From: Melieria omissa
Lineage: Eukaryota; Arthropoda; Insecta; Diptera; Ulidiidae
DNA length: 64,000 bases
NCBI GenBank assembly: GCA_963971225.1
Contig: OZ020270.1
Span: forward strand, 76,648,432-76,712,431
Direction: 5' to 3'
In this document: positions 11,432 through 32,891 of the stretch, one piece after another
How positions within the stretch are numbered: position 1 is the stretch's first letter
Layout of the letters: every line of letters begins with the position of its first letter
Notes under the pieces: model-generated
What the model was told of the DNA's origin: nothing
Databases searched by the model: none
The model's input: the letters and a program-made list of their open reading frames with translations, nothing else
Program-made: the position numbers and the translations under genes

Positions 11432-11465
11432 ATTCTTGCGATAATGATATCAATGAAAATAACAG

Positions 11466-11614
11466 TGTTATAACCCTAATCAACTTTGCTACTACTATTT
11501 TAACATTGTAATCTATTGCATTCAACTCTGTAATCAACTCTGTAACCTTCTCAACTCTGGAATAAAACAGTCAGTCGAATTTAAACTACGAAACGCAACA
11601 GTCCGTTTATATCA
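11466..11614 (+). repeat. Short 5' LTR of mag-like Ty3/gypsy element
   Basis: A 149-bp segment starts TGTTATAACC and ends …TTTATATCA, followed after two bases by a tRNA-Ser primer site. It contains an AATAAA signal (GGAATAAAACAGTCAGTCG) near 11560, as LTRs of mag-type elements often do. There is no second LTR in the window to compare, so the left boundary rests on the TG and on position. Confidence 0.65.
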
Positions 11615-11616
11615 AT

Positions 11617-11627
11617 TGGCGACGAGG
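11617..11627 (+). promoter_or_regulatory. Primer binding site, tRNA-Ser(GCT)-like
   Basis: TGGCGACGAGG is complementary to the 3' end of tRNA-Ser(GCT) (…CCTCGTCGCCA). It starts two bases after the LTR. The tandem repeat unit downstream begins inside this site, at the GAGG of 11624. Confidence 0.75.
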
Positions 11628-11711
11628 AAAAAATGTTTCTTAGCGTTCGTTCTTACTCAGCTGCACCGCGTTTACTTTCGGGCCGTTTTTTCTGTTTCTG
11701 CCATTTCAATC

Positions 11712-12011
11712 ATGCCGGGCGAAAGTGAACTATTTAAAAAATTACTGCTTGAACAGCAGGAATTCACAAAAAATTTACTTCTGCAACAAAGGGAGTGGAT
11801 GCAATCCGTGGTCCACGCCCAAGCTGGTGGTGCTTTCGCAGCAAGCTCCGCCATAGTGCCAACGTTCCATAGCTATGACAAAGAACACCAAACTTGGGAG
11901 TCATACTTGGAGCAGTTGCATCAGCATTTGGCGCGTATTCGGTCACGTTGCCTGAAAAGCAAAAATCGTTTTTTCTCTCGTGGATCGGTACAGACATTTT
12001 CGAACTGTTAA
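11712..12011 (+). CDS. gag: mag-like gag N-terminus, unit 1
   Basis: The likely gag start is ATG 11712 (MPGESELFKKLL…), since the codons upstream to 11616 are leader sequence. The product begins with a helical, glutamine-rich stretch (LLLEQQEFTKNLLLQQREWM) and then an aromatic matrix/capsid-like segment (FHSYDKEHQTWESYL). The frame is lost near 11931, where the capsid sequence continues one register over in the frame that begins at 11894, and this frame runs into a stop at 12011. All five units share the shift, so it predates amplification. A programmed frameshift inside capsid would be unusual. Simple mutation is more likely. Confidence 0.75.
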   Translation: MPGESELFKKLLLEQQEFTKNLLLQQREWMQSVVHAQAGGAFAASSAIVPTFHSYDKEHQTWESYLEQLHQHLARIRSRCLKSKNRFFSRGSVQTFSNC

Positions 12012-15000
12012 AAAATCTGTTTGGCAGTGCCCAGTTACAAGAACCAACATTCAAAGAACTAACGGACAAATTAACGGTTCATTTCCAGTCTAAGCGTCAC
12101 GTAGTCGCCGCGCGATACGATTTCTTCAAAAGTGAAATGAAACCAAAGCAAACGTACAGAGAGTTGGTAGCCGATCTTCGCGGCATAGCCCGTGAGTGCC
12201 TCTTCGCATGTACAGCCGAAAATTGCTCTCAAAATTTCGTGGACGAAATGATTCGCGACCAATTAATTACACACACACCACATGATGCCGTGCGTACTGC
12301 CGCTTTGCAGAAGCTGCAGCCGACGCTAGCCGACGTCCTGCTCATCGCGGAGTCGTACGAAGCAACAACGAAAACAGTTGCCGCGATCAAAGACCAAACG
12401 CAAGGAAACGAAATTCCAGTGAATGTTTTGAGTTCGGGGTCAAAACAAGGTTACGCAAACAAAAGCAACAATAACCGCAAAGTGAAATTTAAATCGTGCT
12501 CTGGTTGTGGACACTCACACACACGAGACAACTGCAAATACAGGAACGCTGTATGTAATAAGTGCGGGAAAACGGGACATATTTCACCAGTGTGTATGTC
12601 AAAAAAAAGAGGAAAAGTCAATCACAGTGACGAAAATAAAAACGAGAACAAAAGAAGAAACCGCGAAAGGAATCAAAGCATTGACGCGGTTGAAACAATT
12701 AACAGTTTGACAGGTGTTGTGAAATTACGTAATAATAAAAAGTTCATCGATTTGGAAATTTTGAATAAAATGATTTCGTTTCAAATGGATTCGGCCGCGA
12801 CGGTTTCCATTATTAACTCAAAGACGTACAAGCAACTAAACAGCTCGCAACTGCGCAAATGTGAAAGAGAATTATTCGCTTTCGGTCAAAAGAAAATTCC
12901 GGTTATGGGTGAACTGTGTACTCGAGTGAAATGCGGCGAAAAACAAAACGAAGTTGCAATTATTGTCGTTAACGTGGACAATGAAAACAATTTATTCGGA
13001 TTAGATTTATTTTCGGTTTTCGGGTTTGAAATTCAGCAAGTTGCTAATTTAACTACAAATGCAACTAGTGCAGTGCACAACCTTTGTGAAAAGTACAGTG
13101 ATGTTTTTGAACCAGCTCTCGGTACTATTAAAAATTTTAGAGCGAGTGTATTTTTAAAACCCAATGCGAAACCCAAATTTTGTAAAAGCCGACAAATTCC
13201 ATTTTCGCAAATGCCACTATTCAAAAGAGAAGTAGAACGACTTACAAGTGCCGGTGTGTGGAAGCCAGTCAAATTTTCACAGTGTGCTTCACCCATCGTT
13301 TTAGCGCCAAAATCGGATGGCTCCATTCGGATTTGTTGTGACTTTAAACAAGCTGTCAACTCTCAACTTGACATTGAGCAATATCCATTGCCAACTCGCG
13401 AATGTTTATTGAACACAATTCGCTGCGGTCAACATTTTTCTAAAATCGACCTTAAAGACGCGTACCTGCAGATGGAATTAGATGACGATTCAAAGACAAT
13501 AATGACAGTCAACACACCGCTTGGATTATTCCAATATCAGCGTCTTCCATACGGTATAGCTAGTGCGCCAGCTATTTTCCAAAAATATCTCGAACAGTTA
13601 CTCCAAGGCGTAGAAGGATGCGGTAACTATCTGGATGACATTATCATCACCGCGCCTACATTTTCTGAACATATTAGCCGCTTGGAACAAGTTCTTCAAA
13701 TTTTGCAACAAAACGGAATGAGGTGCAAAAGACGAAAGTGTTTTTTCTTAAAAGATGAAATTGAATATCTTGGACGCTTAATCAGTGCTAGAGGCGTTTT
13801 GCCAGACAAATCAGGTCTCAAAGCAGTCAGGGACATCCGACCTCCTAAAGACCTCAAGCAAGTAGAAGCTTTTATGGGAAAGGTAAATTATTATCATAAT
13901 TTTATACCCAACTATTCGCAATTGTCAGCCCCACTCAACATGCTGCGCCTCAAAAACGTAAAATTTACTTGGGGTTCCGCTCAACAGCAGTCATTCGAAG
14001 TTTTAAAAATGCACATCCTTAATGCAACGCAGCTAGTACATTATCAGGAACAGTTACCCCTTGTTCTTGCCACAGATGCCTCATCCTACGGCATAGGGGT
14101 GGTACTTTCACACACGTATCCCGATGGTAGTGAGAGACCTATCGCCTTCGCTTCGAAAACCCTTGATAAACATCAGGTGCGATACAGCCAAATAGAGAAG
14201 GAAGGACTAGCTATTATCTTTGGCGTCAAACGTTTTCATCAATATTTATATGGGCGAAAATTTACTTTGGTAACAGACCACAAGCCGCTTATAAGTATTT
14301 TCAATCCAGTCAATCAGTTGCCCACGATGACGTCACATCGTTTGCAGCGATGGGCAATCATACTCATGGCTTATCAATATGAGGTCAAATATCGTAAAAC
14401 CAACGAGCATGGCAACGCAGACACTCTATCGCGCTTACCGCTGGAGGTAGACGAACAATTCGATAACATGGAAGCATGTTTCAATGTCACCGAACTAAAC
14501 ACACCAATTGACGCCAATATCATTCGTCAACATACCGACAAAGACAAGATTCTACAGCGAGTTCGTTTTTTCGTCGAGAATGGATGGCCAGGAAGTTTAC
14601 GTCCGTGTGATGCTGACCTTCGTTCTTTCTTCAACCACAAACTTGCCATAACAATAAACAACAATTTACTTTGCTTACAAACCGGGTGCAACCGTGTCAT
14701 CATTCCAGAGTCTCTTAAACGACGATGTCTTCAACTTCTCCATGATGGACATTGGGGTGCATCGAAAATGAAACAGCTGGCAAGGCAATACGTTTGGTGG
14801 ACCAACATTGACAAGGACATTATTCAACTTACGAGCGAGTGTGATATATGTAAAGTCAACAATTCTGCTCCTGCACGCGACCTTGCTGTTCGTCCTTGGG
14901 AGCGAGTGCATATCGACTTCGGGGGCCCAATTTTCAATCACATGTGGCTCATCTGTGTTGATGCCTTTTCACAGTATCCGTTCGTCATACAACTAAAAAC

Positions 15001-15631
15001 ATCAACAACTGCTGACACTATACACGCTTTATCTGCAATTTTTGCAAATGAGGGGATTCCAGAAACACTCGGAAGTGATAACGGTCCTCAACTCACGTCT
15101 GACGAATTCCATACTTTTTGTACACAACTTGGGATCAGACACATTACAACCGCGCCGTTTCATCCAGCATCGAACGGTTTAGCTGAACGATTCGTTCGAA
15201 CTTTTAAAACCTCTGTCAAGAAAAACTTAGATGATGGTCTGAGGAGGAAAAAATGTTTCTTAGCGTTCGTTCTTACTCAGCTGCACCGCGTTTACTTTCG
15301 GGCCGTTTTTTCTGTTTCTGCCATTTCAATCATGCCGGGCGAAAGTGAACTATTTAAAAAATTACTGCTTGAACAGCAGGAATTCACAAAAAATTTACTT
15401 CTGCAACAAAGGGAGTGGATGCAATCCGTGGTCCACGCCCAAGCTGGTGGTGCTTTCGCAGCAAGCTCCGCCATAGTGCCAACGTTCCATAGCTATGACA
15501 AAGAACACCAAACTTGGGAGTCATACTTGGAGCAGTTGCATCAGCATTTGGCGCGTATTCGGTCACGTTGCCTGAAAAGCAAAAATCGTTTTTTCTCTCG
15601 TGGATCGGTACAGACATTTTCGAACTGTTAA
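11894..15631 (+). CDS. pol: mag-like gag-pol polyprotein, unit 1, fused to next gag
   Basis: A 1,245-codon frame encodes, in order: the rest of gag capsid from about residue 14, two zinc knuckles at about 202-235 (CSGCGHSHTRDNC, CNKCGKTGHISPVC), protease with the DSA active site at 299, RT with YLDD at 579-582, RNase H with TDAS near 728, a HHCC zinc domain at about 949-987, and an integrase core with D1008, D1062 and E1098 (DD35E). Thirty-odd bases after the catalytic Glu codon the frame crosses the tandem junction at 15243/15244. It continues in frame through the gag N-terminus of unit 2, stopping at 15631. The catalytic residues are all present. The first 13 residues are an out-of-frame artefact of the gag frameshift. 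Confidence 0.9.
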   Translation: MGVILGAVASAFGAYSVTLPEKQKSFFLSWIGTDIFELLKNLFGSAQLQEPTFKELTDKLTVHFQSKRHVVAARYDFFKSEMKPKQTYRELVADLRGIARECLFACTAENCSQNFVDEMIRDQLITHTPHDAVRTAALQKLQPTLADVLLIAESYEATTKTVAAIKDQTQGNEIPVNVLSSGSKQGYANKSNNNRKVKFKSCSGCGHSHTRDNCKYRNAVCNKCGKTGHISPVCMSKKRGKVNHSDENKNENKRRNRERNQSIDAVETINSLTGVVKLRNNKKFIDLEILNKMISFQMDSAATVSIINSKTYKQLNSSQLRKCERELFAFGQKKIPVMGELCTRVKCGEKQNEVAIIVVNVDNENNLFGLDLFSVFGFEIQQVANLTTNATSAVHNLCEKYSDVFEPALGTIKNFRASVFLKPNAKPKFCKSRQIPFSQMPLFKREVERLTSAGVWKPVKFSQCASPIVLAPKSDGSIRICCDFKQAVNSQLDIEQYPLPTRECLLNTIRCGQHFSKIDLKDAYLQMELDDDSKTIMTVNTPLGLFQYQRLPYGIASAPAIFQKYLEQLLQGVEGCGNYLDDIIITAPTFSEHISRLEQVLQILQQNGMRCKRRKCFFLKDEIEYLGRLISARGVLPDKSGLKAVRDIRPPKDLKQVEAFMGKVNYYHNFIPNYSQLSAPLNMLRLKNVKFTWGSAQQQSFEVLKMHILNATQLVHYQEQLPLVLATDASSYGIGVVLSHTYPDGSERPIAFASKTLDKHQVRYSQIEKEGLAIIFGVKRFHQYLYGRKFTLVTDHKPLISIFNPVNQLPTMTSHRLQRWAIILMAYQYEVKYRKTNEHGNADTLSRLPLEVDEQFDNMEACFNVTELNTPIDANIIRQHTDKDKILQRVRFFVENGWPGSLRPCDADLRSFFNHKLAITINNNLLCLQTGCNRVIIPESLKRRCLQLLHDGHWGASKMKQLARQYVWWTNIDKDIIQLTSECDICKVNNSAPARDLAVRPWERVHIDFGGPIFNHMWLICVDAFSQYPFVIQLKTSTTADTIHALSAIFANEGIPETLGSDNGPQLTSDEFHTFCTQLGIRHITTAPFHPASNGLAERFVRTFKTSVKKNLDDGLRRKKCFLAFVLTQLHRVYFRAVFSVSAISIMPGESELFKKLLLEQQEFTKNLLLQQREWMQSVVHAQAGGAFAASSAIVPTFHSYDKEHQTWESYLEQLHQHLARIRSRCLKSKNRFFSRGSVQTFSNC

Positions 15632-18600
15632 AAAATCTGTTTGGCAGTGCCCAGTTACAAGAACCAACATTCAAAGAACTAACGGACAAATTAACGGTTC
15701 ATTTCCAGTCTAAGCGTCACGTAGTCGCCGCGCGATACGATTTCTTCAAAAGTGAAATGAAACCAAAGCAAACGTACAGAGAGTTGGTAGCCGATCTTCG
15801 CGGCATAGCCCGTGAGTGCCTCTTCGCATGTACAGCCGAAAATTGCTCTCAAAATTTCGTGGACGAAATGATTCGCGACCAATTAATTACACACACACCA
15901 CATGATGCCGTGCGTACTGCCGCTTTGCAGAAGCTGCAGCCGACGCTAGCCGACGTCCTGCTCATCGCGGAGTCGTACGAAGCAACAACGAAAACAGTTG
16001 CCGCGATCAAAGACCAAACGCAAGGAAACGAAATTCCAGTGAATGTTTTGAGTTCGGGGTCAAAACAAGGTTACGCAAACAAAAGCAACAATAACCGCAA
16101 AGTGAAATTTAAATCGTGCTCTGGTTGTGGACACTCACACACACGAGACAACTGCAAATACAGGAACGCTGTATGTAATAAGTGCGGGAAAACGGGACAT
16201 ATTTCACCAGTGTGTATGTCAAAAAAAAGAGGAAAAGTCAATCACAGTGACGAAAATAAAAACGAGAACAAAAGAAGAAACCGCGAAAGGAATCAAAGCA
16301 TTGACGCGGTTGAAACAATTAACAGTTTGACAGGTGTTGTGAAATTACGTAATAATAAAAAGTTCATCGATTTGGAAATTTTGAATAAAATGATTTCGTT
16401 TCAAATGGATTCGGCCGCGACGGTTTCCATTATTAACTCAAAGACGTACAAGCAACTAAACAGCTCGCAACTGCGCAAATGTGAAAGAGAATTATTCGCT
16501 TTCGGTCAAAAGAAAATTCCGGTTATGGGTGAACTGTGTACTCGAGTGAAATGCGGCGAAAAACAAAACGAAGTTGCAATTATTGTCGTTAACGTGGACA
16601 ATGAAAACAATTTATTCGGATTAGATTTATTTTCGGTTTTCGGGTTTGAAATTCAGCAAGTTGCTAATTTAACTACAAATGCAACTAGTGCAGTGCACAA
16701 CCTTTGTGAAAAGTACAGTGATGTTTTTGAACCAGCTCTCGGTACTATTAAAAATTTTAGAGCGAGTGTATTTTTAAAACCCAATGCGAAACCCAAATTT
16801 TGTAAAAGCCGACAAATTCCATTTTCGCAAATGCCACTATTCAAAAGAGAAGTAGAACGACTTACAAGTGCCGGTGTGTGGAAGCCAGTCAAATTTTCAC
16901 AGTGTGCTTCACCCATCGTTTTAGCGCCAAAATCGGATGGCTCCATTCGGATTTGTTGTGACTTTAAACAAGCTGTCAACTCTCAACTTGACATTGAGCA
17001 ATATCCATTGCCAACTCGCGAATGTTTATTGAACACAATTCGCTGCGGTCAACATTTTTCTAAAATCGACCTTAAAGACGCGTACCTGCAGATGGAATTA
17101 GATGACGATTCAAAGACAATAATGACAGTCAACACACCGCTTGGATTATTCCAATATCAGCGTCTTCCATACGGTATAGCTAGTGCGCCAGCTATTTTCC
17201 AAAAATATCTCGAACAGTTACTCCAAGGCGTAGAAGGATGCGGTAACTATCTGGATGACATTATCATCACCGCGCCTACATTTTCTGAACATATTAGCCG
17301 CTTGGAACAAGTTCTTCAAATTTTGCAACAAAACGGAATGAGGTGCAAAAGACGAAAGTGTTTTTTCTTAAAAGATGAAATTGAATATCTTGGACGCTTA
17401 ATCAGTGCTAGAGGCGTTTTGCCAGACAAATCAGGTCTCAAAGCAGTCAGGGACATCCGACCTCCTAAAGACCTCAAGCAAGTAGAAGCTTTTATGGGAA
17501 AGGTAAATTATTATCATAATTTTATACCCAACTATTCGCAATTGTCAGCCCCACTCAACATGCTGCGCCTCAAAAACGTAAAATTTACTTGGGGTTCCGC
17601 TCAACAGCAGTCATTCGAAGTTTTAAAAATGCACATCCTTAATGCAACGCAGCTAGTACATTATCAGGAACAGTTACCCCTTGTTCTTGCCACAGATGCC
17701 TCATCCTACGGCATAGGGGTGGTACTTTCACACACGTATCCCGATGGTAGTGAGAGACCTATCGCCTTCGCTTCGAAAACCCTTGATAAACATCAGGTGC
17801 GATACAGCCAAATAGAGAAGGAAGGACTAGCTATTATCTTTGGCGTCAAACGTTTTCATCAATATTTATATGGGCGAAAATTTACTTTGGTAACAGACCA
17901 CAAGCCGCTTATAAGTATTTTCAATCCAGTCAATCAGTTGCCCACGATGACGTCACATCGTTTGCAGCGATGGGCAATCATACTCATGGCTTATCAATAT
18001 GAGGTCAAATATCGTAAAACCAACGAGCATGGCAACGCAGACACTCTATCGCGCTTACCGCTGGAGGTAGACGAACAATTCGATAACATGGAAGCATGTT
18101 TCAATGTCACCGAACTAAACACACCAATTGACGCCAATATCATTCGTCAACATACCGACAAAGACAAGATTCTACAGCGAGTTCGTTTTTTCGTCGAGAA
18201 TGGATGGCCAGGAAGTTTACGTCCGTGTGATGCTGACCTTCGTTCTTTCTTCAACCACAAACTTGCCATAACAATAAACAACAATTTACTTTGCTTACAA
18301 ACCGGGTGCAACCGTGTCATCATTCCAGAGTCTCTTAAACGACGATGTCTTCAACTTCTCCATGATGGACATTGGGGTGCATCGAAAATGAAACAGCTGG
18401 CAAGGCAATACGTTTGGTGGACCAACATTGACAAGGACATTATTCAACTTACGAGCGAGTGTGATATATGTAAAGTCAACAATTCTGCTCCTGCACGCGA
18501 CCTTGCTGTTCGTCCTTGGGAGCGAGTGCATATCGACTTCGGGGGCCCAATTTTCAATCACATGTGGCTCATCTGTGTTGATGCCTTTTCACAGTATCCG

Positions 18601-19251
18601 TTCGTCATACAACTAAAAACATCAACAACTGCTGACACTATACACGCTTTATCTGCAATTTTTGCAAATGAGGGGATTCCAGAAACACTCGGAAGTGATA
18701 ACGGTCCTCAACTCACGTCTGACGAATTCCATACTTTTTGTACACAACTTGGGATCAGACACATTACAACCGCGCCGTTTCATCCAGCATCGAACGGTTT
18801 AGCTGAACGATTCGTTCGAACTTTTAAAACCTCTGTCAAGAAAAACTTAGATGATGGTCTGAGGAGGAAAAAATGTTTCTTAGCGTTCGTTCTTACTCAG
18901 CTGCACCGCGTTTACTTTCGGGCCGTTTTTTCTGTTTCTGCCATTTCAATCATGCCGGGCGAAAGTGAACTATTTAAAAAATTACTGCTTGAACAGCAGG
19001 AATTCACAAAAAATTTACTTCTGCAACAAAGGGAGTGGATGCAATCCGTGGTCCACGCCCAAGCTGGTGGTGCTTTCGCAGCAAGCTCCGCCATAGTGCC
19101 AACGTTCCATAGCTATGACAAAGAACACCAAACTTGGGAGTCATACTTGGAGCAGTTGCATCAGCATTTGGCGCGTATTCGGTCACGTTGCCTGAAAAGC
19201 AAAAATCGTTTTTTCTCTCGTGGATCGGTACAGACATTTTCGAACTGTTAA
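15514..19251 (+). CDS. pol: mag-like gag-pol polyprotein, unit 2
   Basis: This has the same 1,245-codon layout as unit 1 and, as far as I can see, an identical protein. Both units have Ile in RD-I-RPPKD and Leu in MLR-L-KN in the RT-RNaseH connection, which groups units 1 and 2 against 3-5. The frame starts 118 bp before the previous one ends, in the next register, because the unit length is not a multiple of three. There is no LTR, promoter or primer site of its own in front of it. Any transcript would have to start at the LTR at 11466 or be read-through. Confidence 0.88.
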   Translation: MGVILGAVASAFGAYSVTLPEKQKSFFLSWIGTDIFELLKNLFGSAQLQEPTFKELTDKLTVHFQSKRHVVAARYDFFKSEMKPKQTYRELVADLRGIARECLFACTAENCSQNFVDEMIRDQLITHTPHDAVRTAALQKLQPTLADVLLIAESYEATTKTVAAIKDQTQGNEIPVNVLSSGSKQGYANKSNNNRKVKFKSCSGCGHSHTRDNCKYRNAVCNKCGKTGHISPVCMSKKRGKVNHSDENKNENKRRNRERNQSIDAVETINSLTGVVKLRNNKKFIDLEILNKMISFQMDSAATVSIINSKTYKQLNSSQLRKCERELFAFGQKKIPVMGELCTRVKCGEKQNEVAIIVVNVDNENNLFGLDLFSVFGFEIQQVANLTTNATSAVHNLCEKYSDVFEPALGTIKNFRASVFLKPNAKPKFCKSRQIPFSQMPLFKREVERLTSAGVWKPVKFSQCASPIVLAPKSDGSIRICCDFKQAVNSQLDIEQYPLPTRECLLNTIRCGQHFSKIDLKDAYLQMELDDDSKTIMTVNTPLGLFQYQRLPYGIASAPAIFQKYLEQLLQGVEGCGNYLDDIIITAPTFSEHISRLEQVLQILQQNGMRCKRRKCFFLKDEIEYLGRLISARGVLPDKSGLKAVRDIRPPKDLKQVEAFMGKVNYYHNFIPNYSQLSAPLNMLRLKNVKFTWGSAQQQSFEVLKMHILNATQLVHYQEQLPLVLATDASSYGIGVVLSHTYPDGSERPIAFASKTLDKHQVRYSQIEKEGLAIIFGVKRFHQYLYGRKFTLVTDHKPLISIFNPVNQLPTMTSHRLQRWAIILMAYQYEVKYRKTNEHGNADTLSRLPLEVDEQFDNMEACFNVTELNTPIDANIIRQHTDKDKILQRVRFFVENGWPGSLRPCDADLRSFFNHKLAITINNNLLCLQTGCNRVIIPESLKRRCLQLLHDGHWGASKMKQLARQYVWWTNIDKDIIQLTSECDICKVNNSAPARDLAVRPWERVHIDFGGPIFNHMWLICVDAFSQYPFVIQLKTSTTADTIHALSAIFANEGIPETLGSDNGPQLTSDEFHTFCTQLGIRHITTAPFHPASNGLAERFVRTFKTSVKKNLDDGLRRKKCFLAFVLTQLHRVYFRAVFSVSAISIMPGESELFKKLLLEQQEFTKNLLLQQREWMQSVVHAQAGGAFAASSAIVPTFHSYDKEHQTWESYLEQLHQHLARIRSRCLKSKNRFFSRGSVQTFSNC

Positions 19252-22200
19252 AAAATCTGTTTGGCAGTGCCCAGTTACAAGAACCAACATTCAAAGAACT
19301 AACGGACAAATTAACGGTTCATTTCCAGTCTAAGCGTCACGTAGTCGCCGCGCGATACGATTTCTTCAAAAGTGAAATGAAACCAAAGCAAACGTACAGA
19401 GAGTTGGTAGCCGATCTTCGCGGCATAGCCCGTGAGTGCCTCTTCGCATGTACAGCCGAAAATTGCTCTCAAAATTTCGTGGACGAAATGATTCGCGACC
19501 AATTAATTACACACACACCACATGATGCCGTGCGTACTGCCGCTTTGCAGAAGCTGCAGCCGACGCTAGCCGACGTCCTGCTCATCGCGGAGTCGTACGA
19601 AGCAACAACGAAAACAGTTGCCGCGATCAAAGACCAAACGCAAGGAAACGAAATTCCAGTGAATGTTTTGAGTTCGGGGTCAAAACAAGGTTACGCAAAC
19701 AAAAGCAACAATAACCGCAAAGTGAAATTTAAATCGTGCTCTGGTTGTGGACACTCACACACACGAGACAACTGCAAATACAGGAACGCTGTATGTAATA
19801 AGTGCGGGAAAACGGGACATATTTCACCAGTGTGTATGTCAAAAAAAAGAGGAAAAGTCAATCACAGTGACGAAAATAAAAACGAGAACAAAAGAAGAAA
19901 CCGCGAAAGGAATCAAAGCATTGACGCGGTTGAAACAATTAACAGTTTGACAGGTGTTGTGAAATTACGTAATAATAAAAAGTTCATCGATTTGGAAATT
20001 TTGAATAAAATGATTTCGTTTCAAATGGATTCGGCCGCGACGGTTTCCATTATTAACTCAAAGACGTACAAGCAACTAAACAGCTCGCAACTGCGCAAAT
20101 GTGAAAGAGAATTATTCGCTTTCGGTCAAAAGAAAATTCCGGTTATGGGTGAACTGTGTACTCGAGTGAAATGCGGCGAAAAACAAAACGAAGTTGCAAT
20201 TATTGTCGTTAACGTGGACAATGAAAACAATTTATTCGGATTAGATTTATTTTCGGTTTTCGGGTTTGAAATTCAGCAAGTTGCTAATTTAACTACAAAT
20301 GCAACTAGTGCAGTGCACAACCTTTGTGAAAAGTACAGTGATGTTTTTGAACCAGCTCTCGGTACTATTAAAAATTTTAGAGCGAGTGTATTTTTAAAAC
20401 CCAATGCGAAACCCAAATTTTGTAAAAGCCGACAAATTCCATTTTCGCAAATGCCACTATTCAAAAGAGAAGTAGAACGACTTACAAGTGCCGGTGTGTG
20501 GAAGCCAGTCAAATTTTCACAGTGTGCTTCACCCATCGTTTTAGCGCCAAAATCGGATGGCTCCATTCGGATTTGTTGTGACTTTAAACAAGCTGTCAAC
20601 TCTCAACTTGACATTGAGCAATATCCATTGCCAACTCGCGAATGTTTATTGAACACAATTCGCTGCGGTCAACATTTTTCTAAAATCGACCTTAAAGACG
20701 CGTACCTGCAGATGGAATTAGATGACGATTCAAAGACAATAATGACAGTCAACACACCGCTTGGATTATTCCAATATCAGCGTCTTCCATACGGTATAGC
20801 TAGTGCGCCAGCTATTTTCCAAAAATATCTCGAACAGTTACTCCAAGGCGTAGAAGGATGCGGTAACTATCTGGATGACATTATCATCACCGCGCCTACA
20901 TTTTCTGAACATATTAGCCGCTTGGAACAAGTTCTTCAAATTTTGCAACAAAACGGAATGAGGTGCAAAAGACGAAAGTGTTTTTTCTTAAAAGATGAAA
21001 TTGAATATCTTGGACGCTTAATCAGTGCTAGAGGCGTTTTGCCAGACAAATCAGGTCTCAAAGCAGTCAGGGACCTCCGACCTCCTAAAGACCTCAAGCA
21101 AGTAGAAGCTTTTATGGGAAAGGTAAATTATTATCATAATTTTATACCCAACTATTCGCAATTGTCAGCCCCACTCAACATGCTGCGCCGCAAAAACGTA
21201 AAATTTACTTGGGGTTCCGCTCAACAGCAGTCATTCGAAGTTTTAAAAATGCACATCCTTAATGCAACGCAGCTAGTACATTATCAGGAACAGTTACCCC
21301 TTGTTCTTGCCACAGATGCCTCATCCTACGGCATAGGGGTGGTACTTTCACACACGTATCCCGATGGTAGTGAGAGACCTATCGCCTTCGCTTCGAAAAC
21401 CCTTGATAAACATCAGGTGCGATACAGCCAAATAGAGAAGGAAGGACTAGCTATTATCTTTGGCGTCAAACGTTTTCATCAATATTTATATGGGCGAAAA
21501 TTTACTTTGGTAACAGACCACAAGCCGCTTATAAGTATTTTCAATCCAGTCAATCAGTTGCCCACGATGACGTCACATCGTTTGCAGCGATGGGCAATCA
21601 TACTCATGGCTTATCAATATGAGGTCAAATATCGTAAAACCAACAAGCATGGCAACGCAGACACTCTATCGCGCTTACCGCTGGAGGTAGACGAACAATT
21701 CGATAACATGGAAGCATGTTTCAATGTCACCGAACTAAACACACCAATTGACGCCAATATCATTCGTCAACATACCGACAAAGACAAGATTCTACAGCGA
21801 GTTCGTTTTTTCGTCGAGAATGGATGGCCAGGAAGTTTACGTCCGTGTGATGCTGACCTTCGTTCTTTCTTCAACCACAAACTTGCCATAACAATAAACA
21901 ACAATTTACTTTGCTTACAAACCGGGTGCAACCGTGTCATCATTCCAGAGTCTCTTAAACGACGATGTCTTCAACTTCTCCATGATGGACATTGGGGTGC
22001 ATCGAAAATGAAACAGCTGGCAAGGCAATACGTTTGGTGGACCAACATTGACAAGGACATTATTCAACTTACGAGCGAGTGTGATATATGTAAAGTCAAC
22101 AATTCTGCTCCTGCACGCGACCTTGCTGTTCGTCCTTGGGAGCGAGTGCATATCGACTTCGGGGGCCCAATTTTCAATCACATGTGGCTCATCTGTGTTG

Positions 22201-22871
22201 ATGCCTTTTCACAGTATCCGTTCGTCATACAACTAAAAACATCAACAACTGCTGACACTATACACGCTTTATCTGCAATTTTTGCAAATGAGGGGATTCC
22301 AGAAACACTCGGAAGTGATAACGGTCCTCAACTCACGTCTGACGAATTCCATACTTTTTGTACACAACTTGGGATCAGACACATTACAACCGCGCCGTTT
22401 CATCCAGCATCGAACGGTTTAGCTGAACGATTCGTTCGAACTTTTAAAACCTCTGTCAAGAAAAACTTAGATGATGGTCTGAGGAGGAAAAAATGTTTCT
22501 TAGCGTTCGTTCTTACTCAGCTGCACCGCGTTTACTTTCGGGCCGTTTTTTCTGTTTCTGCCATTTCAATCATGCCGGGCGAAAGTGAACTATTTAAAAA
22601 ATTACTGCTTGAACAGCAGGAATTCACAAAAAATTTACTTCTGCAACAAAGGGAGTGGATGCAATCCGTGGTCCACGCCCAAGCTGGTGGTGCTTTCGCA
22701 GCAAGCTCCGCCATAGTGCCAACGTTCCATAGCTATGACAAAGAACACCAAACTTGGGAGTCATACTTGGAGCAGTTGCATCAGCATTTGGCGCGTATTC
22801 GGTCACGTTGCCTGAAAAGCAAAAATCGTTTTTTCTCTCGTGGATCGGTACAGACATTTTCGAACTGTTAA
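19134..22871 (+). CDS. pol: mag-like gag-pol polyprotein, unit 3
   Basis: The domain order and catalytic residues are those of unit 1. It carries the second haplotype (Leu in RD-L-RPPKD, Arg in MLR-R-KN) and one private change, Lys instead of Glu in the RNase H tail (TNKHGNAD, codon change at 21645). The His and Asp of HGNAD, part of the RNase H active site, are unchanged. The private change shows the units are not merely one repeat read multiple times. Confidence 0.88.
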   Translation: MGVILGAVASAFGAYSVTLPEKQKSFFLSWIGTDIFELLKNLFGSAQLQEPTFKELTDKLTVHFQSKRHVVAARYDFFKSEMKPKQTYRELVADLRGIARECLFACTAENCSQNFVDEMIRDQLITHTPHDAVRTAALQKLQPTLADVLLIAESYEATTKTVAAIKDQTQGNEIPVNVLSSGSKQGYANKSNNNRKVKFKSCSGCGHSHTRDNCKYRNAVCNKCGKTGHISPVCMSKKRGKVNHSDENKNENKRRNRERNQSIDAVETINSLTGVVKLRNNKKFIDLEILNKMISFQMDSAATVSIINSKTYKQLNSSQLRKCERELFAFGQKKIPVMGELCTRVKCGEKQNEVAIIVVNVDNENNLFGLDLFSVFGFEIQQVANLTTNATSAVHNLCEKYSDVFEPALGTIKNFRASVFLKPNAKPKFCKSRQIPFSQMPLFKREVERLTSAGVWKPVKFSQCASPIVLAPKSDGSIRICCDFKQAVNSQLDIEQYPLPTRECLLNTIRCGQHFSKIDLKDAYLQMELDDDSKTIMTVNTPLGLFQYQRLPYGIASAPAIFQKYLEQLLQGVEGCGNYLDDIIITAPTFSEHISRLEQVLQILQQNGMRCKRRKCFFLKDEIEYLGRLISARGVLPDKSGLKAVRDLRPPKDLKQVEAFMGKVNYYHNFIPNYSQLSAPLNMLRRKNVKFTWGSAQQQSFEVLKMHILNATQLVHYQEQLPLVLATDASSYGIGVVLSHTYPDGSERPIAFASKTLDKHQVRYSQIEKEGLAIIFGVKRFHQYLYGRKFTLVTDHKPLISIFNPVNQLPTMTSHRLQRWAIILMAYQYEVKYRKTNKHGNADTLSRLPLEVDEQFDNMEACFNVTELNTPIDANIIRQHTDKDKILQRVRFFVENGWPGSLRPCDADLRSFFNHKLAITINNNLLCLQTGCNRVIIPESLKRRCLQLLHDGHWGASKMKQLARQYVWWTNIDKDIIQLTSECDICKVNNSAPARDLAVRPWERVHIDFGGPIFNHMWLICVDAFSQYPFVIQLKTSTTADTIHALSAIFANEGIPETLGSDNGPQLTSDEFHTFCTQLGIRHITTAPFHPASNGLAERFVRTFKTSVKKNLDDGLRRKKCFLAFVLTQLHRVYFRAVFSVSAISIMPGESELFKKLLLEQQEFTKNLLLQQREWMQSVVHAQAGGAFAASSAIVPTFHSYDKEHQTWESYLEQLHQHLARIRSRCLKSKNRFFSRGSVQTFSNC

Positions 22872-25800
22872 AAAATCTGTTTGGCAGTGCCCAGTTACAA
22901 GAACCAACATTCAAAGAACTAACGGACAAATTAACGGTTCATTTCCAGTCTAAGCGTCACGTAGTCGCCGCGCGATACGATTTCTTCAAAAGTGAAATGA
23001 AACCAAAGCAAACGTACAGAGAGTTGGTAGCCGATCTTCGCGGCATAGCCCGTGAGTGCCTCTTCGCATGTACAGCCGAAAATTGCTCTCAAAATTTCGT
23101 GGACGAAATGATTCGCGACCAATTAATTACACACACACCACATGATGCCGTGCGTACTGCCGCTTTGCAGAAGCTGCAGCCGACGCTAGCCGACGTCCTG
23201 CTCATCGCGGAGTCGTACGAAGCAACAACGAAAACAGTTGCCGCGATCAAAGACCAAACGCAAGGAAACGAAATTCCAGTGAATGTTTTGAGTTCGGGGT
23301 CAAAACAAGGTTACGCAAACAAAAGCAACAATAACCGCAAAGTGAAATTTAAATCGTGCTCTGGTTGTGGACACTCACACACACGAGACAACTGCAAATA
23401 CAGGAACGCTGTATGTAATAAGTGCGGGAAAACGGGACATATTTCACCAGTGTGTATGTCAAAAAAAAGAGGAAAAGTCAATCACAGTGACGAAAATAAA
23501 AACGAGAACAAAAGAAGAAACCGCGAAAGGAATCAAAGCATTGACGCGGTTGAAACAATTAACAGTTTGACAGGTGTTGTGAAATTACGTAATAATAAAA
23601 AGTTCATCGATTTGGAAATTTTGAATAAAATGATTTCGTTTCAAATGGATTCGGCCGCGACGGTTTCCATTATTAACTCAAAGACGTACAAGCAACTAAA
23701 CAGCTCGCAACTGCGCAAATGTGAAAGAGAATTATTCGCTTTCGGTCAAAAGAAAATTCCGGTTATGGGTGAACTGTGTACTCGAGTGAAATGCGGCGAA
23801 AAACAAAACGAAGTTGCAATTATTGTCGTTAACGTGGACAATGAAAACAATTTATTCGGATTAGATTTATTTTCGGTTTTCGGGTTTGAAATTCAGCAAG
23901 TTGCTAATTTAACTACAAATGCAACTAGTGCAGTGCACAACCTTTGTGAAAAGTACAGTGATGTTTTTGAACCAGCTCTCGGTACTATTAAAAATTTTAG
24001 AGCGAGTGTATTTTTAAAACCCAATGCGAAACCCAAATTTTGTAAAAGCCGACAAATTCCATTTTCGCAAATGCCACTATTCAAAAGAGAAGTAGAACGA
24101 CTTACAAGTGCCGGTGTGTGGAAGCCAGTCAAATTTTCACAGTGTGCTTCACCCATCGTTTTAGCGCCAAAATCGGATGGCTCCATTCGGATTTGTTGTG
24201 ACTTTAAACAAGCTGTCAACTCTCAACTTGACATTGAGCAATATCCATTGCCAACTCGCGAATGTTTATTGAACACAATTCGCTGCGGTCAACATTTTTC
24301 TAAAATCGACCTTAAAGACGCGTACCTGCAGATGGAATTAGATGACGATTCAAAGACAATAATGACAGTCAACACACCGCTTGGATTATTCCAATATCAG
24401 CGTCTTCCATACGGTATAGCTAGTGCGCCAGCTATTTTCCAAAAATATCTCGAACAGTTACTCCAAGGCGTAGAAGGATGCGGTAACTATCTGGATGACA
24501 TTATCATCACCGCGCCTACATTTTCTGAACATATTAGCCGCTTGGAACAAGTTCTTCAAATTTTGCAACAAAACGGAATGAGGTGCAAAAGACGAAAGTG
24601 TTTTTTCTTAAAAGATGAAATTGAATATCTTGGACGCTTAATCAGTGCTAGAGGCGTTTTGCCAGACAAATCAGGTCTCAAAGCAGTCAGGGACCTCCGA
24701 CCTCCTAAAGACCTCAAGCAAGTAGAAGCTTTTATGGGAAAGGTAAATTATTATCATAATTTTATACCCAACTATTCGCAATTGTCAGCCCCACTCAACA
24801 TGCTGCGCCGCAAAAACGTAAAATTTACTTGGGGTTCCGCTCAACAGCAGTCATTCGAAGTTTTAAAAATGCACATCCTTAATGCAACGCAGCTAGTACA
24901 TTATCAGGAACAGTTACCCCTTGTTCTTGCCACAGATGCCTCATCCTACGGCATAGGGGTGGTACTTTCACACACGTATCCCGATGGTAGTGAGAGACCT
25001 ATCGCCTTCGCTTCGAAAACCCTTGATAAACATCAGGTGCGATACAGCCAAATAGAGAAGGAAGGACTAGCTATTATCTTTGGCGTCAAACGTTTTCATC
25101 AATATTTATATGGGCGAAAATTTACTTTGGTAACAGACCACAAGCCGCTTATAAGTATTTTCAATCCAGTCAATCAGTTGCCCACGATGACGTCACATCG
25201 TTTGCAGCGATGGGCAATCATACTCATGGCTTATCAATATGAGGTCAAATATCGTAAAACCAACGAGCATGGCAACGCAGACACTCTATCGCGCTTACCG
25301 CTGGAGGTAGACGAACAATTCGATAACATGGAAGCATGTTTCAATGTCACCGAACTAAACACACCAATTGACGCCAATATCATTCGTCAACATACCGACA
25401 AAGACAAGATTCTACAGCGAGTTCGTTTTTTCGTCGAGAATGGATGGCCAGGAAGTTTACGTCCGTGTGATGCTGACCTTCGTTCTTTCTTCAACCACAA
25501 ACTTGCCATAACAATAAACAACAATTTACTTTGCTTACAAACCGGGTGCAACCGTGTCATCATTCCAGAGTCTCTTAAACGACGATGTCTTCAACTTCTC
25601 CATGATGGACATTGGGGTGCATCGAAAATGAAACAGCTGGCAAGGCAATACGTTTGGTGGACCAACATTGACAAGGACATTATTCAACTTACGAGCGAGT
25701 GTGATATATGTAAAGTCAACAATTCTGCTCCTGCACGCGACCTTGCTGTTCGTCCTTGGGAGCGAGTGCATATCGACTTCGGGGGCCCAATTTTCAATCA

Positions 25801-26491
25801 CATGTGGCTCATCTGTGTTGATGCCTTTTCACAGTATCCGTTCGTCATACAACTAAAAACATCAACAACTGCTGACACTATACACGCTTTATCTGCAATT
25901 TTTGCAAATGAGGGGATTCCAGAAACACTCGGAAGTGATAACGGTCCTCAACTCACGTCTGACGAATTCCATACTTTTTGTACACAACTTGGGATCAGAC
26001 ACATTACAACCGCGCCGTTTCATCCAGCATCGAACGGTTTAGCTGAACGATTCGTTCGAACTTTTAAAACCTCTGTCAAGAAAAACTTAGATGATGGTCT
26101 GAGGAGGAAAAAATGTTTCTTAGCGTTCGTTCTTACTCAGCTGCACCGCGTTTACTTTCGGGCCGTTTTTTCTGTTTCTGCCATTTCAATCATGCCGGGC
26201 GAAAGTGAACTATTTAAAAAATTACTGCTTGAACAGCAGGAATTCACAAAAAATTTACTTCTGCAACAAAGGGAGTGGATGCAATCCGTGGTCCACGCCC
26301 AAGCTGGTGGTGCTTTCGCAGCAAGCTCCGCCATAGTGCCAACGTTCCATAGCTATGACAAAGAACACCAAACTTGGGAGTCATACTTGGAGCAGTTGCA
26401 TCAGCATTTGGCGCGTATTCGGTCACGTTGCCTGAAAAGCAAAAATCGTTTTTTCTCTCGTGGATCGGTACAGACATTTTCGAACTGTTAA
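22754..26491 (+). CDS. pol: mag-like gag-pol polyprotein, unit 4
   Basis: It has the Leu/Arg haplotype shared with units 3 and 5 and otherwise the unit 1 sequence. As in units 1-3, the integrase is cut after the catalytic Glu region and fused in frame to the following gag N-terminus (…DDGLRRKKC). The encoded integrase therefore lacks its C-terminal DNA-binding part. Confidence 0.88.
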   Translation: MGVILGAVASAFGAYSVTLPEKQKSFFLSWIGTDIFELLKNLFGSAQLQEPTFKELTDKLTVHFQSKRHVVAARYDFFKSEMKPKQTYRELVADLRGIARECLFACTAENCSQNFVDEMIRDQLITHTPHDAVRTAALQKLQPTLADVLLIAESYEATTKTVAAIKDQTQGNEIPVNVLSSGSKQGYANKSNNNRKVKFKSCSGCGHSHTRDNCKYRNAVCNKCGKTGHISPVCMSKKRGKVNHSDENKNENKRRNRERNQSIDAVETINSLTGVVKLRNNKKFIDLEILNKMISFQMDSAATVSIINSKTYKQLNSSQLRKCERELFAFGQKKIPVMGELCTRVKCGEKQNEVAIIVVNVDNENNLFGLDLFSVFGFEIQQVANLTTNATSAVHNLCEKYSDVFEPALGTIKNFRASVFLKPNAKPKFCKSRQIPFSQMPLFKREVERLTSAGVWKPVKFSQCASPIVLAPKSDGSIRICCDFKQAVNSQLDIEQYPLPTRECLLNTIRCGQHFSKIDLKDAYLQMELDDDSKTIMTVNTPLGLFQYQRLPYGIASAPAIFQKYLEQLLQGVEGCGNYLDDIIITAPTFSEHISRLEQVLQILQQNGMRCKRRKCFFLKDEIEYLGRLISARGVLPDKSGLKAVRDLRPPKDLKQVEAFMGKVNYYHNFIPNYSQLSAPLNMLRRKNVKFTWGSAQQQSFEVLKMHILNATQLVHYQEQLPLVLATDASSYGIGVVLSHTYPDGSERPIAFASKTLDKHQVRYSQIEKEGLAIIFGVKRFHQYLYGRKFTLVTDHKPLISIFNPVNQLPTMTSHRLQRWAIILMAYQYEVKYRKTNEHGNADTLSRLPLEVDEQFDNMEACFNVTELNTPIDANIIRQHTDKDKILQRVRFFVENGWPGSLRPCDADLRSFFNHKLAITINNNLLCLQTGCNRVIIPESLKRRCLQLLHDGHWGASKMKQLARQYVWWTNIDKDIIQLTSECDICKVNNSAPARDLAVRPWERVHIDFGGPIFNHMWLICVDAFSQYPFVIQLKTSTTADTIHALSAIFANEGIPETLGSDNGPQLTSDEFHTFCTQLGIRHITTAPFHPASNGLAERFVRTFKTSVKKNLDDGLRRKKCFLAFVLTQLHRVYFRAVFSVSAISIMPGESELFKKLLLEQQEFTKNLLLQQREWMQSVVHAQAGGAFAASSAIVPTFHSYDKEHQTWESYLEQLHQHLARIRSRCLKSKNRFFSRGSVQTFSNC

Positions 26492-29400
26492 AAAATCTGT
26501 TTGGCAGTGCCCAGTTACAAGAACCAACATTCAAAGAACTAACGGACAAATTAACGGTTCATTTCCAGTCTAAGCGTCACGTAGTCGCCGCGCGATACGA
26601 TTTCTTCAAAAGTGAAATGAAACCAAAGCAAACGTACAGAGAGTTGGTAGCCGATCTTCGCGGCATAGCCCGTGAGTGCCTCTTCGCATGTACAGCCGAA
26701 AATTGCTCTCAAAATTTCGTGGACGAAATGATTCGCGACCAATTAATTACACACACACCACATGATGCCGTGCGTACTGCCGCTTTGCAGAAGCTGCAGC
26801 CGACGCTAGCCGACGTCCTGCTCATCGCGGAGTCGTACGAAGCAACAACGAAAACAGTTGCCGCGATCAAAGACCAAACGCAAGGAAACGAAATTCCAGT
26901 GAATGTTTTGAGTTCGGGGTCAAAACAAGGTTACGCAAACAAAAGCAACAATAACCGCAAAGTGAAATTTAAATCGTGCTCTGGTTGTGGACACTCACAC
27001 ACACGAGACAACTGCAAATACAGGAACGCTGTATGTAATAAGTGCGGGAAAACGGGACATATTTCACCAGTGTGTATGTCAAAAAAAAGAGGAAAAGTCA
27101 ATCACAGTGACGAAAATAAAAACGAGAACAAAAGAAGAAACCGCGAAAGGAATCAAAGCATTGACGCGGTTGAAACAATTAACAGTTTGACAGGTGTTGT
27201 GAAATTACGTAATAATAAAAAGTTCATCGATTTGGAAATTTTGAATAAAATGATTTCGTTTCAAATGGATTCGGCCGCGACGGTTTCCATTATTAACTCA
27301 AAGACGTACAAGCAACTAAACAGCTCGCAACTGCGCAAATGTGAAAGAGAATTATTCGCTTTCGGTCAAAAGAAAATTCCGGTTATGGGTGAACTGTGTA
27401 CTCGAGTGAAATGCGGCGAAAAACAAAACGAAGTTGCAATTATTGTCGTTAACGTGGACAATGAAAACAATTTATTCGGATTAGATTTATTTTCGGTTTT
27501 CGGGTTTGAAATTCAGCAAGTTGCTAATTTAACTACAAATGCAACTAGTGCAGTGCACAACCTTTGTGAAAAGTACAGTGATGTTTTTGAACCAGCTCTC
27601 GGTACTATTAAAAATTTTAGAGCGAGTGTATTTTTAAAACCCAATGCGAAACCCAAATTTTGTAAAAGCCGACAAATTCCATTTTCGCAAATGCCACTAT
27701 TCAAAAGAGAAGTAGAACGACTTACAAGTGCCGGTGTGTGGAAGCCAGTCAAATTTTCACAGTGTGCTTCACCCATCGTTTTAGCGCCAAAATCGGATGG
27801 CTCCATTCGGATTTGTTGTGACTTTAAACAAGCTGTCAACTCTCAACTTGACATTGAGCAATATCCATTGCCAACTCGCGAATGTTTATTGAACACAATT
27901 CGCTGCGGTCAACATTTTTCTAAAATCGACCTTAAAGACGCGTACCTGCAGATGGAATTAGATGACGATTCAAAGACAATAATGACAGTCAACACACCGC
28001 TTGGATTATTCCAATATCAGCGTCTTCCATACGGTATAGCTAGTGCGCCAGCTATTTTCCAAAAATATCTCGAACAGTTACTCCAAGGCGTAGAAGGATG
28101 CGGTAACTATCTGGATGACATTATCATCACCGCGCCTACATTTTCTGAACATATTAGCCGCTTGGAACAAGTTCTTCAAATTTTGCAACAAAACGGAATG
28201 AGGTGCAAAAGACGAAAGTGTTTTTTCTTAAAAGATGAAATTGAATATCTTGGACGCTTAATCAGTGCTAGAGGCGTTTTGCCAGACAAATCAGGTCTCA
28301 AAGCAGTCAGGGACCTCCGACCTCCTAAAGACCTCAAGCAAGTAGAAGCTTTTATGGGAAAGGTAAATTATTATCATAATTTTATACCCAACTATTCGCA
28401 ATTGTCAGCCCCACTCAACATGCTGCGCCGCAAAAACGTAAAATTTACTTGGGGTTCCGCTCAACAGCAGTCATTCGAAGTTTTAAAAATGCACATCCTT
28501 AATGCAACGCAGCTAGTACATTATCAGGAACAGTTACCCCTTGTTCTTGCCACAGATGCCTCATCCTACGGCATAGGGGTGGTACTTTCACACACGTATC
28601 CCGATGGTAGTGAGAGACCTATCGCCTTCGCTTCGAAAACCCTTGATAAACATCAGGTGCGATACAGCCAAATAGAGAAGGAAGGACTAGCTATTATCTT
28701 TGGCGTCAAACGTTTTCATCAATATTTATATGGGCGAAAATTTACTTTGGTAACAGACCACAAGCCGCTTATAAGTATTTTCAATCCAGTCAATCAGTTG
28801 CCCACGATGACGTCACATCGTTTGCAGCGATGGGCAATCATACTCATGGCTTATCAATATGAGGTCAAATATCGTAAAACCAACGAGCATGGCAACGCAG
28901 ACACTCTATCGCGCTTACCGCTGGAGGTAGACGAACAATTCGATAACATGGAAGCATGTTTCAATGTCACCGAACTAAACACACCAATTGACGCCAATAT
29001 CATTCGTCAACATACCGACAAAGACAAGATTCTACAGCGAGTTCGTTTTTTCGTCGAGAATGGATGGCCAGGAAGTTTACGTCCGTGTGATGCTGACCTT
29101 CGTTCTTTCTTCAACCACAAACTTGCCATAACAATAAACAACAATTTACTTTGCTTACAAACCGGGTGCAACCGTGTCATCATTCCAGAGTCTCTTAAAC
29201 GACGATGTCTTCAACTTCTCCATGATGGACATTGGGGTGCATCGAAAATGAAACAGCTGGCAAGGCAATACGTTTGGTGGACCAACATTGACAAGGACAT
29301 TATTCAACTTACGAGCGAGTGTGATATATGTAAAGTCAACAATTCTGCTCCTGCACGCGACCTTGCTGTTCGTCCTTGGGAGCGAGTGCATATCGACTTC

Positions 29401-29850
29401 GGGGGCCCAATTTTCAATCACATGTGGCTCATCTGTGTTGATGCCTTTTCACAGTATCCGTTCGTCATACAACTAAAAACATCAACAACTGCTGACACTA
29501 TACACGCTTTATCTGCAATTTTTGCAAATGAGGGGATTCCAGAAACACTCGGAAGTGATAACGGTCCTCAACTCACGTCTGACGAATTCCATACTTTTTG
29601 TACACAACTTGGGATCAGACACATTACAACCGCGCCGTTTCATCCAGCATCGAACGGTTTAGCTGAACGATTCGTTCGAACTTTTAAAACCTCTGTCAAG
29701 AAAAACTTAGATGATGGTCTGAAGCTAACACCTGCAGTACTTAAGGCAGGTTCTCACCTTGTGGGGAAAAAAACAACGATTTTTTTTTTACCTTATCGTG
29801 TAAATATATGTTTCAAAAATGTGCTCCAGAAATTTCAGATCAAAATCTGA
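26374..29850 (+). CDS. pol: mag-like gag-pol polyprotein, unit 5, MITE-interrupted
   Basis: The last unit, with the Leu/Arg haplotype. Instead of meeting another unit at 29722, the integrase continues into its native sequence for seven residues (KLTPAVL). A 719-bp TTAA MITE then interrupts it at 29741, and the frame ends by reading into the MITE, giving 1,158 codons. The rest of the integrase follows at 30468. This is the only unit with an authentic integrase continuation, so it marks the original 3' side of the element. Confidence 0.88.
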   Translation: MGVILGAVASAFGAYSVTLPEKQKSFFLSWIGTDIFELLKNLFGSAQLQEPTFKELTDKLTVHFQSKRHVVAARYDFFKSEMKPKQTYRELVADLRGIARECLFACTAENCSQNFVDEMIRDQLITHTPHDAVRTAALQKLQPTLADVLLIAESYEATTKTVAAIKDQTQGNEIPVNVLSSGSKQGYANKSNNNRKVKFKSCSGCGHSHTRDNCKYRNAVCNKCGKTGHISPVCMSKKRGKVNHSDENKNENKRRNRERNQSIDAVETINSLTGVVKLRNNKKFIDLEILNKMISFQMDSAATVSIINSKTYKQLNSSQLRKCERELFAFGQKKIPVMGELCTRVKCGEKQNEVAIIVVNVDNENNLFGLDLFSVFGFEIQQVANLTTNATSAVHNLCEKYSDVFEPALGTIKNFRASVFLKPNAKPKFCKSRQIPFSQMPLFKREVERLTSAGVWKPVKFSQCASPIVLAPKSDGSIRICCDFKQAVNSQLDIEQYPLPTRECLLNTIRCGQHFSKIDLKDAYLQMELDDDSKTIMTVNTPLGLFQYQRLPYGIASAPAIFQKYLEQLLQGVEGCGNYLDDIIITAPTFSEHISRLEQVLQILQQNGMRCKRRKCFFLKDEIEYLGRLISARGVLPDKSGLKAVRDLRPPKDLKQVEAFMGKVNYYHNFIPNYSQLSAPLNMLRRKNVKFTWGSAQQQSFEVLKMHILNATQLVHYQEQLPLVLATDASSYGIGVVLSHTYPDGSERPIAFASKTLDKHQVRYSQIEKEGLAIIFGVKRFHQYLYGRKFTLVTDHKPLISIFNPVNQLPTMTSHRLQRWAIILMAYQYEVKYRKTNEHGNADTLSRLPLEVDEQFDNMEACFNVTELNTPIDANIIRQHTDKDKILQRVRFFVENGWPGSLRPCDADLRSFFNHKLAITINNNLLCLQTGCNRVIIPESLKRRCLQLLHDGHWGASKMKQLARQYVWWTNIDKDIIQLTSECDICKVNNSAPARDLAVRPWERVHIDFGGPIFNHMWLICVDAFSQYPFVIQLKTSTTADTIHALSAIFANEGIPETLGSDNGPQLTSDEFHTFCTQLGIRHITTAPFHPASNGLAERFVRTFKTSVKKNLDDGLKLTPAVLKAGSHLVGKKTTIFFLPYRVNICFKNVLQKFQIKI

Positions 29851-30463
29851 AAAATTACAAAAGTTACAGGCCGTTACATAGAGCAGTGTCGACCACCGGC
29901 CAAGCTCGCTTTAAACTTTAAACGCGTTTTTCTGAGAAACACATTTTCGGACCTAACGGAAGTGATTGAAGGCGCTGGAATGAACCAATCGTCACCAAAT
30001 TTTTTTTAAAATGTTCCTTAGGGTTTTTTCTAACAAACGAACCACGATCAGCCAAAAATATTGAAAATTGTTTATTTAAAAAAATAATAAGTGAACAAAA
30101 AAATGCGAAAATCGTAATTTTTTTTTCACAACCTCATAACTTTTGTAATTTTGATTTTTTTTTTCATGATCTTGGTTCATTCAATAGATAATACGGTACA
30201 CATTAAGAATGTGTTCGATTTTTGTGTTTCAGTTCACGGGTTTTGACGGAATCACTTCCGGTAGCGGTAACGACATGCCACCACTGATGGACGCCCCCTC
30301 CCCCCCTTTTTTGATTCATTCAATTTGAAAAATTGTATTCTCTAAATAAATGTGGGTTCATATCCAGAAAAATGAACGTTCAGCGTTGTATCTTTAACCG
30401 TTTTCTCAAAAAAAATTCCTAAAAAAAGTGCACTTTTTCGGATCCACAAGGTGAGAACCTGCC
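29745..30463. mobile_element. MITE with TTAA duplication, copy 1 (719 bp)
   Basis: The inverted termini GGCAGGTTCTCACCTTGTGG and their complement at 30444-30463 are flanked by TTAA at 29741-29744 and 30464-30467. A related 804-bp copy with the same ends lies at 42551-43354. TTAA duplication fits piggyBac- or Kolobok-type movers. The integrase coding on the two sides stays in register if one TTAA is kept, as expected for a simple insertion. No coding capacity. Confidence 0.9.
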
Positions 30464-30467
30464 TTAA

Positions 30468-32880: not shown

Positions 32881-32891
32881 GGGATATGCGT

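Follow-up and report, generated by a model that had tools for sequence, protein, structure and literature searches.

The window analysed here comprises 64,000 nucleotides of the genome of Melieria omissa (Diptera: Ulidiidae), namely positions 76,648,432-76,712,431 of contig C4 (OZ020270.1), which measures 79.3 Mb in an assembly of 490 Mb and 164 contigs. At 11624-29722 it contains a tandem array derived from the interior of a Ty3/gypsy-like retrotransposon. Offset self-comparison revealed an exact period of 3,620 bp and five units on the plus strand, arranged head-to-tail: unit 1 (11624..15243), composed of 3,619 native bases and one junction base; unit 2 (15244..18863), identical to unit 1; unit 3 (18864..22483), with one private change; unit 4 (22484..26103); and unit 5 (26104..29722), which equals unit 4 over 3,619 bases and continues into native integrase sequence. 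Pairwise, the units differ at 0-3 of the 3,619 native bases (mean 1.6) and show no indels at all.

Other copies of the element were fetched from the same genome as loci L001-L008, of which L005/L006 and L007/L003 were treated in pairs. A search of the genome with the unit gave at least 30 matching places outside the array, 63-98% identical and many of them fragments; the array's own units did not appear among the matches. Three other copies (L001, L005/L006, L007/L003) possess pairs of long terminal repeats (LTRs) of 148-149 bp with 0-1 mismatches, together with 5-bp target duplications; paired TG...CA LTRs and target duplications within 4-6 bp are what would be expected of a Ty3/gypsy family. 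As L001, in which both LTRs are present, spans 4.4 kb and lacks ~0.2 kb inside, the whole element is estimated at ~4.5 kb. The 5' LTR in the window occupies 11466..11614 (plus strand, 149 bp, TG...CA) and is followed by a putative primer-binding site (11617..11628, plus strand; TGGCGACGAGGA), within which the array begins, the break falling between 11623 and 11624. This site is presumably of the tRNA-Ser type, with a putative match to the end of that tRNA. The array diverges from the other copies by 1.7-2.4%. Fragments of the same family are also scattered over 62 kb elsewhere on the contig (G000:C4:78301875-78363831), one of them (unit positions 3081-3617) being present twice. A first-pass annotation of the window had reported five near-identical units at an exact 3,620-bp period and a single LTR ahead of them; pairwise comparison of the units and the LTR pairs of the three other copies bear out both statements.

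Each unit represents the interior of the element, from the middle of the primer-binding site to a point just past the integrase core. Pfam domains recovered in the unit were an aspartic protease (below cut-off), reverse transcriptase (RT), RNase H, an H2C2 zinc finger and the integrase core, and the best solved relative was the Ty3 Gag-Pol polyprotein (7q5b, E 8e-77). The pol order protease-RT-RNase H-integrase and the Ty3-related sequence likewise indicate a Ty3/gypsy element, possibly of the Mag-type lineage, to which it bears an apparent resemblance. The open frame of unit 5 (26359..29850, plus strand; 1,163 amino acids) covers the gag remainder, protease, RT, RNase H and the zinc finger and core of the integrase, and its tail enters an insertion. 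An N-terminal gag frame, at 11712..12011 (plus strand) in unit 1, is ended by a frameshift near 11.9 kb that is common to the five units, and the coding-frame scores change frame at this place. The frameshift is absent from 4/4 other copies aligned there (L001, L002, L005/L006, L007), while L008 has an alignment gap at the site and L003 and L004 do not cover it; gag is thus broken in all five units. At 11879-15631, and at the equivalent places in units 2-4, the pol frame runs in frame across the junction, the next 5' untranslated region (UTR) and the gag start, giving 1,250 amino acids; such read-through across the internal junctions of units 1-4 is probably without function. The array as a whole looks to be devoid of coding function, with gag frameshifted, units 1-4 lacking the C-terminal part of the integrase and units 2-5 lacking a whole primer site.

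The two outer edges were compared with the other copies. On the left, the uncut arrangement of LTR, primer site and unit is found in 4/4 copies covering it (L001, L005, L007, L008). On the right, the edge 29722/29723 is continuous in L002, L003 and L005/L006, with deletions there in L004 and L001, and native integrase follows directly after unit 5 through a TTAA (29723..29744, plus strand; 0-1 mismatches to L002, L003, L005/L006). Judged from these copies, both outer edges are native and the four internal junctions alone are new. The latter are identical: ...GGTCTGA is followed by a single G and this by GAGGAAAA. As its last base, the period thus has G at every internal junction, but A at 29723 after unit 5. 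The G is supplied by neither native side of the locus (C on the left, A on the right), so that the join shows no microhomology and contains one extra or changed base. A junction driven by microhomology was considered and is unsupported, the two sides having no bases in common or, on the most generous reading, GA with one substitution. No LTR is present at any of the four internal junctions.

Allowing up to 3 mismatches, the 23-base junction word is confined within the window to the four internal joins (chance expectation 0.00), and it had no relatives in viral contigs, which is little informative for an animal genome. With a 300-bp junction probe, 21 matching places were found in the genome (21/21 candidates scored), of which four are full matches, all in the array; the remaining 17 are one-sided only, two of these being the outer edges of the array itself. 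A G likewise stands in the junction column of L004, but right at the edge of that copy's own small integrase deletion (L004:3925-3945), which starts within a few bases of the right breakpoint of the array; this spot may therefore be fragile. The first-pass annotation had described units of gag-to-integrase content with the integrase cut at the same base each time. The units do span these regions, but none is intact, and the identical cut applies to the four internal joins, whereas unit 5 runs on natively for a further 18 bp.

Only three columns vary among the five units, at 13835, 13950 and 14405 in unit-1 coordinates, and all three alter an amino acid in the pol frame. From unit 1 to unit 5 they read A A C C C, T T G G G and G G A G G, respectively. 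Since the other copies read C, G and G at these columns where covered (4, 4 and 5 copies), units 1 and 2 carry two derived changes each, the same pair, unit 3 carries one and units 4 and 5 carry none. Among the 3,603 sites at which four or more of the five other copies could be compared, the array has 26 private substitutions common to all its units, one of which adjoins the frameshift and is possibly an alignment effect. With 22-48 private substitutions per other copy, the array's 26 are ordinary for a copy. The amplification had been called recent in the earlier annotation, and this applies in relative terms: about one change per unit has accrued since, against 26 private changes common to all units, and the amplification would fall into approximately the last 1/27 of the private history of the lineage. 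At an assumed mutation rate of 1-5e-9 per base and generation, the mean pairwise divergence corresponds to ~44,000-220,000 generations, a figure that conversion would bias young.

The surroundings bear traces of further rearrangement. On the left, 11100-11381 is part of a high-copy dispersed repeat with at least 39 other matches of 96-99% identity (best 40 of 393 candidates scored). Its minus-strand open reading frame (ORF), which we take to be P-transposase-like, had no Pfam match. When 11100-11700 was used in the search, the repeat was found to match 11100-11381 and, immediately adjoining, the reverse complement of 11417-11465, with a 5-bp overlap (copies checked). The repeat ends in the window with CTATT at 11377..11381, the target-site duplication on the 3' side of the element; adjacent to it lie the last 37 bp of the 3' LTR in inverted position (11382..11418, minus strand), which align to the LTR end in other copies, and a 5' flank of 49 bp (11417..11465, plus strand), which consists of repeat sequence and the target duplication at 11461-11465 and stands in the opposite orientation to the native repeat; two bases (TT) overlap at the inversion junction. 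A single native CTATT is present in 7/7 repeat copies compared, of 11 fetched, whereas in the window CTATT adjoins the inverted LTR end and CTGTT, in reverse reading, adjoins the 5' LTR; because of this pair, the element is taken to have inserted originally in minus orientation, duplicating 5 bp of target. Subsequently, an inversion with the TT overlap would have brought the terminal 37 bp of the 3' LTR up against the 5' flank, the other side having been lost, or a fold-back event would have had the same outcome. The reciprocal inversion junction, that is, repeat sequence past the site (L010 from 1827), is absent from the window; the remaining genome was not searched for it. The inversion left a 38-bp inverted repeat (11381-11418 and 11578-11615), for which a strong fold of single-stranded DNA is predicted (z -9.6).

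On the right, the integrase is interrupted at 29741..30467 by a TTAA-flanked insertion with inverted termini, resembling a miniature inverted-repeat transposable element, of which a second copy lies at 42545-43358. It begins 18 bp right of the array edge (fold z -5.1, 20 shuffles), and its uninterrupted site is found in L002, L003 and L005/L006. The piece behind it (30468..30670, plus strand) is identified as the C-terminal remainder of the integrase because other genome copies match it, L001-L004 at 97-99% and L005/L006 at 89%. Taken alone, the piece had zero matches in Pfam or PDB and nothing significant against three other integrase pieces in the window (BLASTP, shuffled local alignment); its codon score is coding-like, being reached by 15/1,576 background windows. 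The native element ends at 30670, and ~410 bp and the 3' LTR are absent from the window: of the tails of L001, L002 and L003, only the LTR was matched there, in addition to a repeat in the flank of L003.

Taken together, these data make it likely that one defective copy was duplicated in tandem and that the array then grew by exchange or conversion. The starting point would have been a single Ty3/gypsy copy of ~4.5 kb, already defective, in which a DNA-level event duplicated 3,619 bp in tandem; a break, or a switch of template, within the primer-binding site would have been linked non-homologously to a position shortly beyond the integrase core, and the identical copies, with 3.6 kb of homology, would have increased to five by unequal sister-chromatid exchange or gene conversion. 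The outer edges are native, one non-homologous junction recurs, private mutations are shared and later mutations are distributed in blocks; end joining as the mode of the join and exchange or conversion as the mode of expansion are what we infer from this. Duplication in place follows from the 26 private substitutions and the gag frameshift shared by the five units, and the derived pair shared by the adjacent units 1 and 2 speaks for growth or conversion once these mutations had arisen, and not for a single burst. Among the options named in the first-pass annotation, duplication followed by unequal exchange is thus best supported. Some points weigh against it nonetheless: conversion alone could create the block pattern of units 1 and 2, the outer edges would look no different if a rolling-circle product had recombined into this copy, the junction G may be a one-base insertion, a substitution or a variant, and the unit count of five is that of the assembly and as such provisional.

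It is unlikely that an extrachromosomal circle, from the resident copy or an LTR-less complementary DNA (cDNA), was amplified by rolling circle and reinserted at the locus by homologous recombination. Near-identical units with one common junction would suit a multimer made in one step, and the absence of microhomology suits circle closure by end joining, yet a single burst does not predict a derived pair confined to units 1 and 2 unless conversion followed, and the break lies inside the primer site and not at the LTR edge. A cDNA from another known copy is unlikely in view of the 26 locus-private changes in all units, the full junction is found nowhere else in the assembly, and reinsertion by recombination into the very same copy is required. 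The LTR-less cDNA circle suggested earlier is therefore disfavoured, as it predicts neither the primer-site break nor the shared derived block. About as unlikely is an assembly artefact, in which the assembler expanded one unit or a different number of units: an 18-kb near-identical array is hard to assemble and a wrong unit count is possible, but the units show ordered differences and no indels, the junction is new sequence not present in full elsewhere in the genome, and the array lies inside a 79-Mb contig. A multimeric cDNA formed during reverse transcription and integrated as such, which is among the explanations given for LTR-sharing tandem LTR retrotransposons in the account of PMC11899658, is highly improbable, since no LTR stands between the units, the gag frameshift and private changes of the resident copy recur in all of them, and the whole locus has a single LTR, a single inverted LTR end and a single pair of 5-bp target duplications. 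That the units arose by retrotransposition is rejected on the grounds of the locus-private substitutions and the frameshift common to all.

A more specific course of the tandem duplication, in which stalling or breakage at two hairpins set the unit ends, so that a chain of inversion, insertion and duplication seeded a satellite, is conceivable but rather doubtful. The distance is 8 bp between the left breakpoint and an arm of the inverted repeat, the inversion-derived LTR end, and 13 bp between the right breakpoint and the TTAA insertion's inverted terminus. With 10 to 11 inverted repeats in the comparison (arms of at least 22 bp, spacer of at most 1 kb), an arm is no more than 13 bp away for 3.4-3.5% of the window outside the array (7.5% to 3.2% at arm cut-offs of 12 to 28 bp). 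If independent, both breakpoints would come to lie that close with a probability of ~0.1% at 22 bp (0.6% at 12 bp), in a test chosen post hoc, and at a threshold of 8 bp the left breakpoint alone qualifies. Against hairpins as the cause, the left repeat is an LTR end and could matter for other reasons, and L004, which has no TTAA insertion, breaks near the same right point, so the spot may be able to break without it. The proximity of both breakpoints to hairpins is suggestive.

The window is otherwise dense in mobile elements. Protein relatives of the array element were not found in viral contigs, nor any relatives in prokaryote genome contigs, again with little bearing on an animal genome. 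A multi-kb stretch is present in two copies (35884-40995 and 55436-64000), the longest two blocks of which are 98.6% and 99.5% identical; the second copy harbours at 59324-62687 an element with identical 249-bp LTRs and DUF1759 in its ORF, presumably BEL/Pao-like, and 39683-39688 in the first copy is its empty site. On the minus strand, a gypsy pol (32391-35890) is interrupted by an ORF at 33059-34123 that appears non-LTR-like by eye, and the Rfam family R2_retro_el is marginal at 32919-33005 (39.8 bits vs a cut-off of 38). Furthermore, an inverted duplication of ~97% identity with a 0.7-kb centre (43569-43951 and 44625-45004) and several packed tandem repeats with periods including 59, 81 and 148 bp (3936-4959) were noted.

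Double insertions of transposable elements are reported to act as seeds of satellites, the tandem structure being a substrate of unequal exchange, as McGurk and Barbash are said to have proposed in 2018; there, an element reportedly inserts next to or into another one, whereas the array would have begun with an internal duplication in a single copy. In tandem LTR retrotransposons of rice and other plants, LTRs are shared between units (Morales-Diaz et al., 2025, PMC11899658). As described there, these likewise have head-to-tail internal regions, are mostly Ty3/gypsy and go back to one insertion, and a described case also agrees in its 5-nt target duplications and the high identity of its internal regions (PMC11899658). 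However, the plant structures are attributed in that account to LTR recombination or retrotransposition (PMC11899658), whereas the unit of the array has no LTR and its junction is non-homologous; with no LTR between its internal regions, the array does not belong to the LTR-sharing kind.

Closer in mode of origin are CRM1TR and CRM4TR of maize, in which part of a Ty3/gypsy element became tandemised via an illegitimate junction in LTR and UTR and for which growth by conversion has been proposed (Sharma et al., 2013, PMC3648361); the array would similarly have grown and been homogenised by conversion or exchange. According to the same account, their monomer consists of LTR and UTR, and they are centromeric or pericentromeric and millions of years old (PMC3648361), whereas the monomer of the array is almost the whole coding region, in five units only. 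Satellites related to ORF fragments of retrotransposons are mentioned in a review, by which any part of an element may serve (PMC9659126), and Ogre-derived satellites are traced to short tandem repeats of the 3' UTR (PMC7004042). No report of an LTR-less array of a near-complete coding region was found in a limited search of the literature, from which little can be concluded about their absence. Both tandem LTR retrotransposons and satellites that stem from transposable elements are already known, and the LTR-less coding unit is a variant of them. The array consists of near-identical head-to-tail monomers from one element, as satellites do, but has only five of them at one locus (21/21 scored candidates), and it has the look of an element-derived satellite in the making.

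As a rule, satellites of mobile-element origin are encountered at an advanced age, whereas this array displays an early stage base by base: the parent copy, the native edges, the illegitimate junction and the first mutations after amplification are all still readable. It thereby separates initiation, by a non-homologous join, from growth, by exchange between identical copies. If confirmed by reads, it would mean that a retrotransposon can turn into a tandem array without any LTRs between the units.

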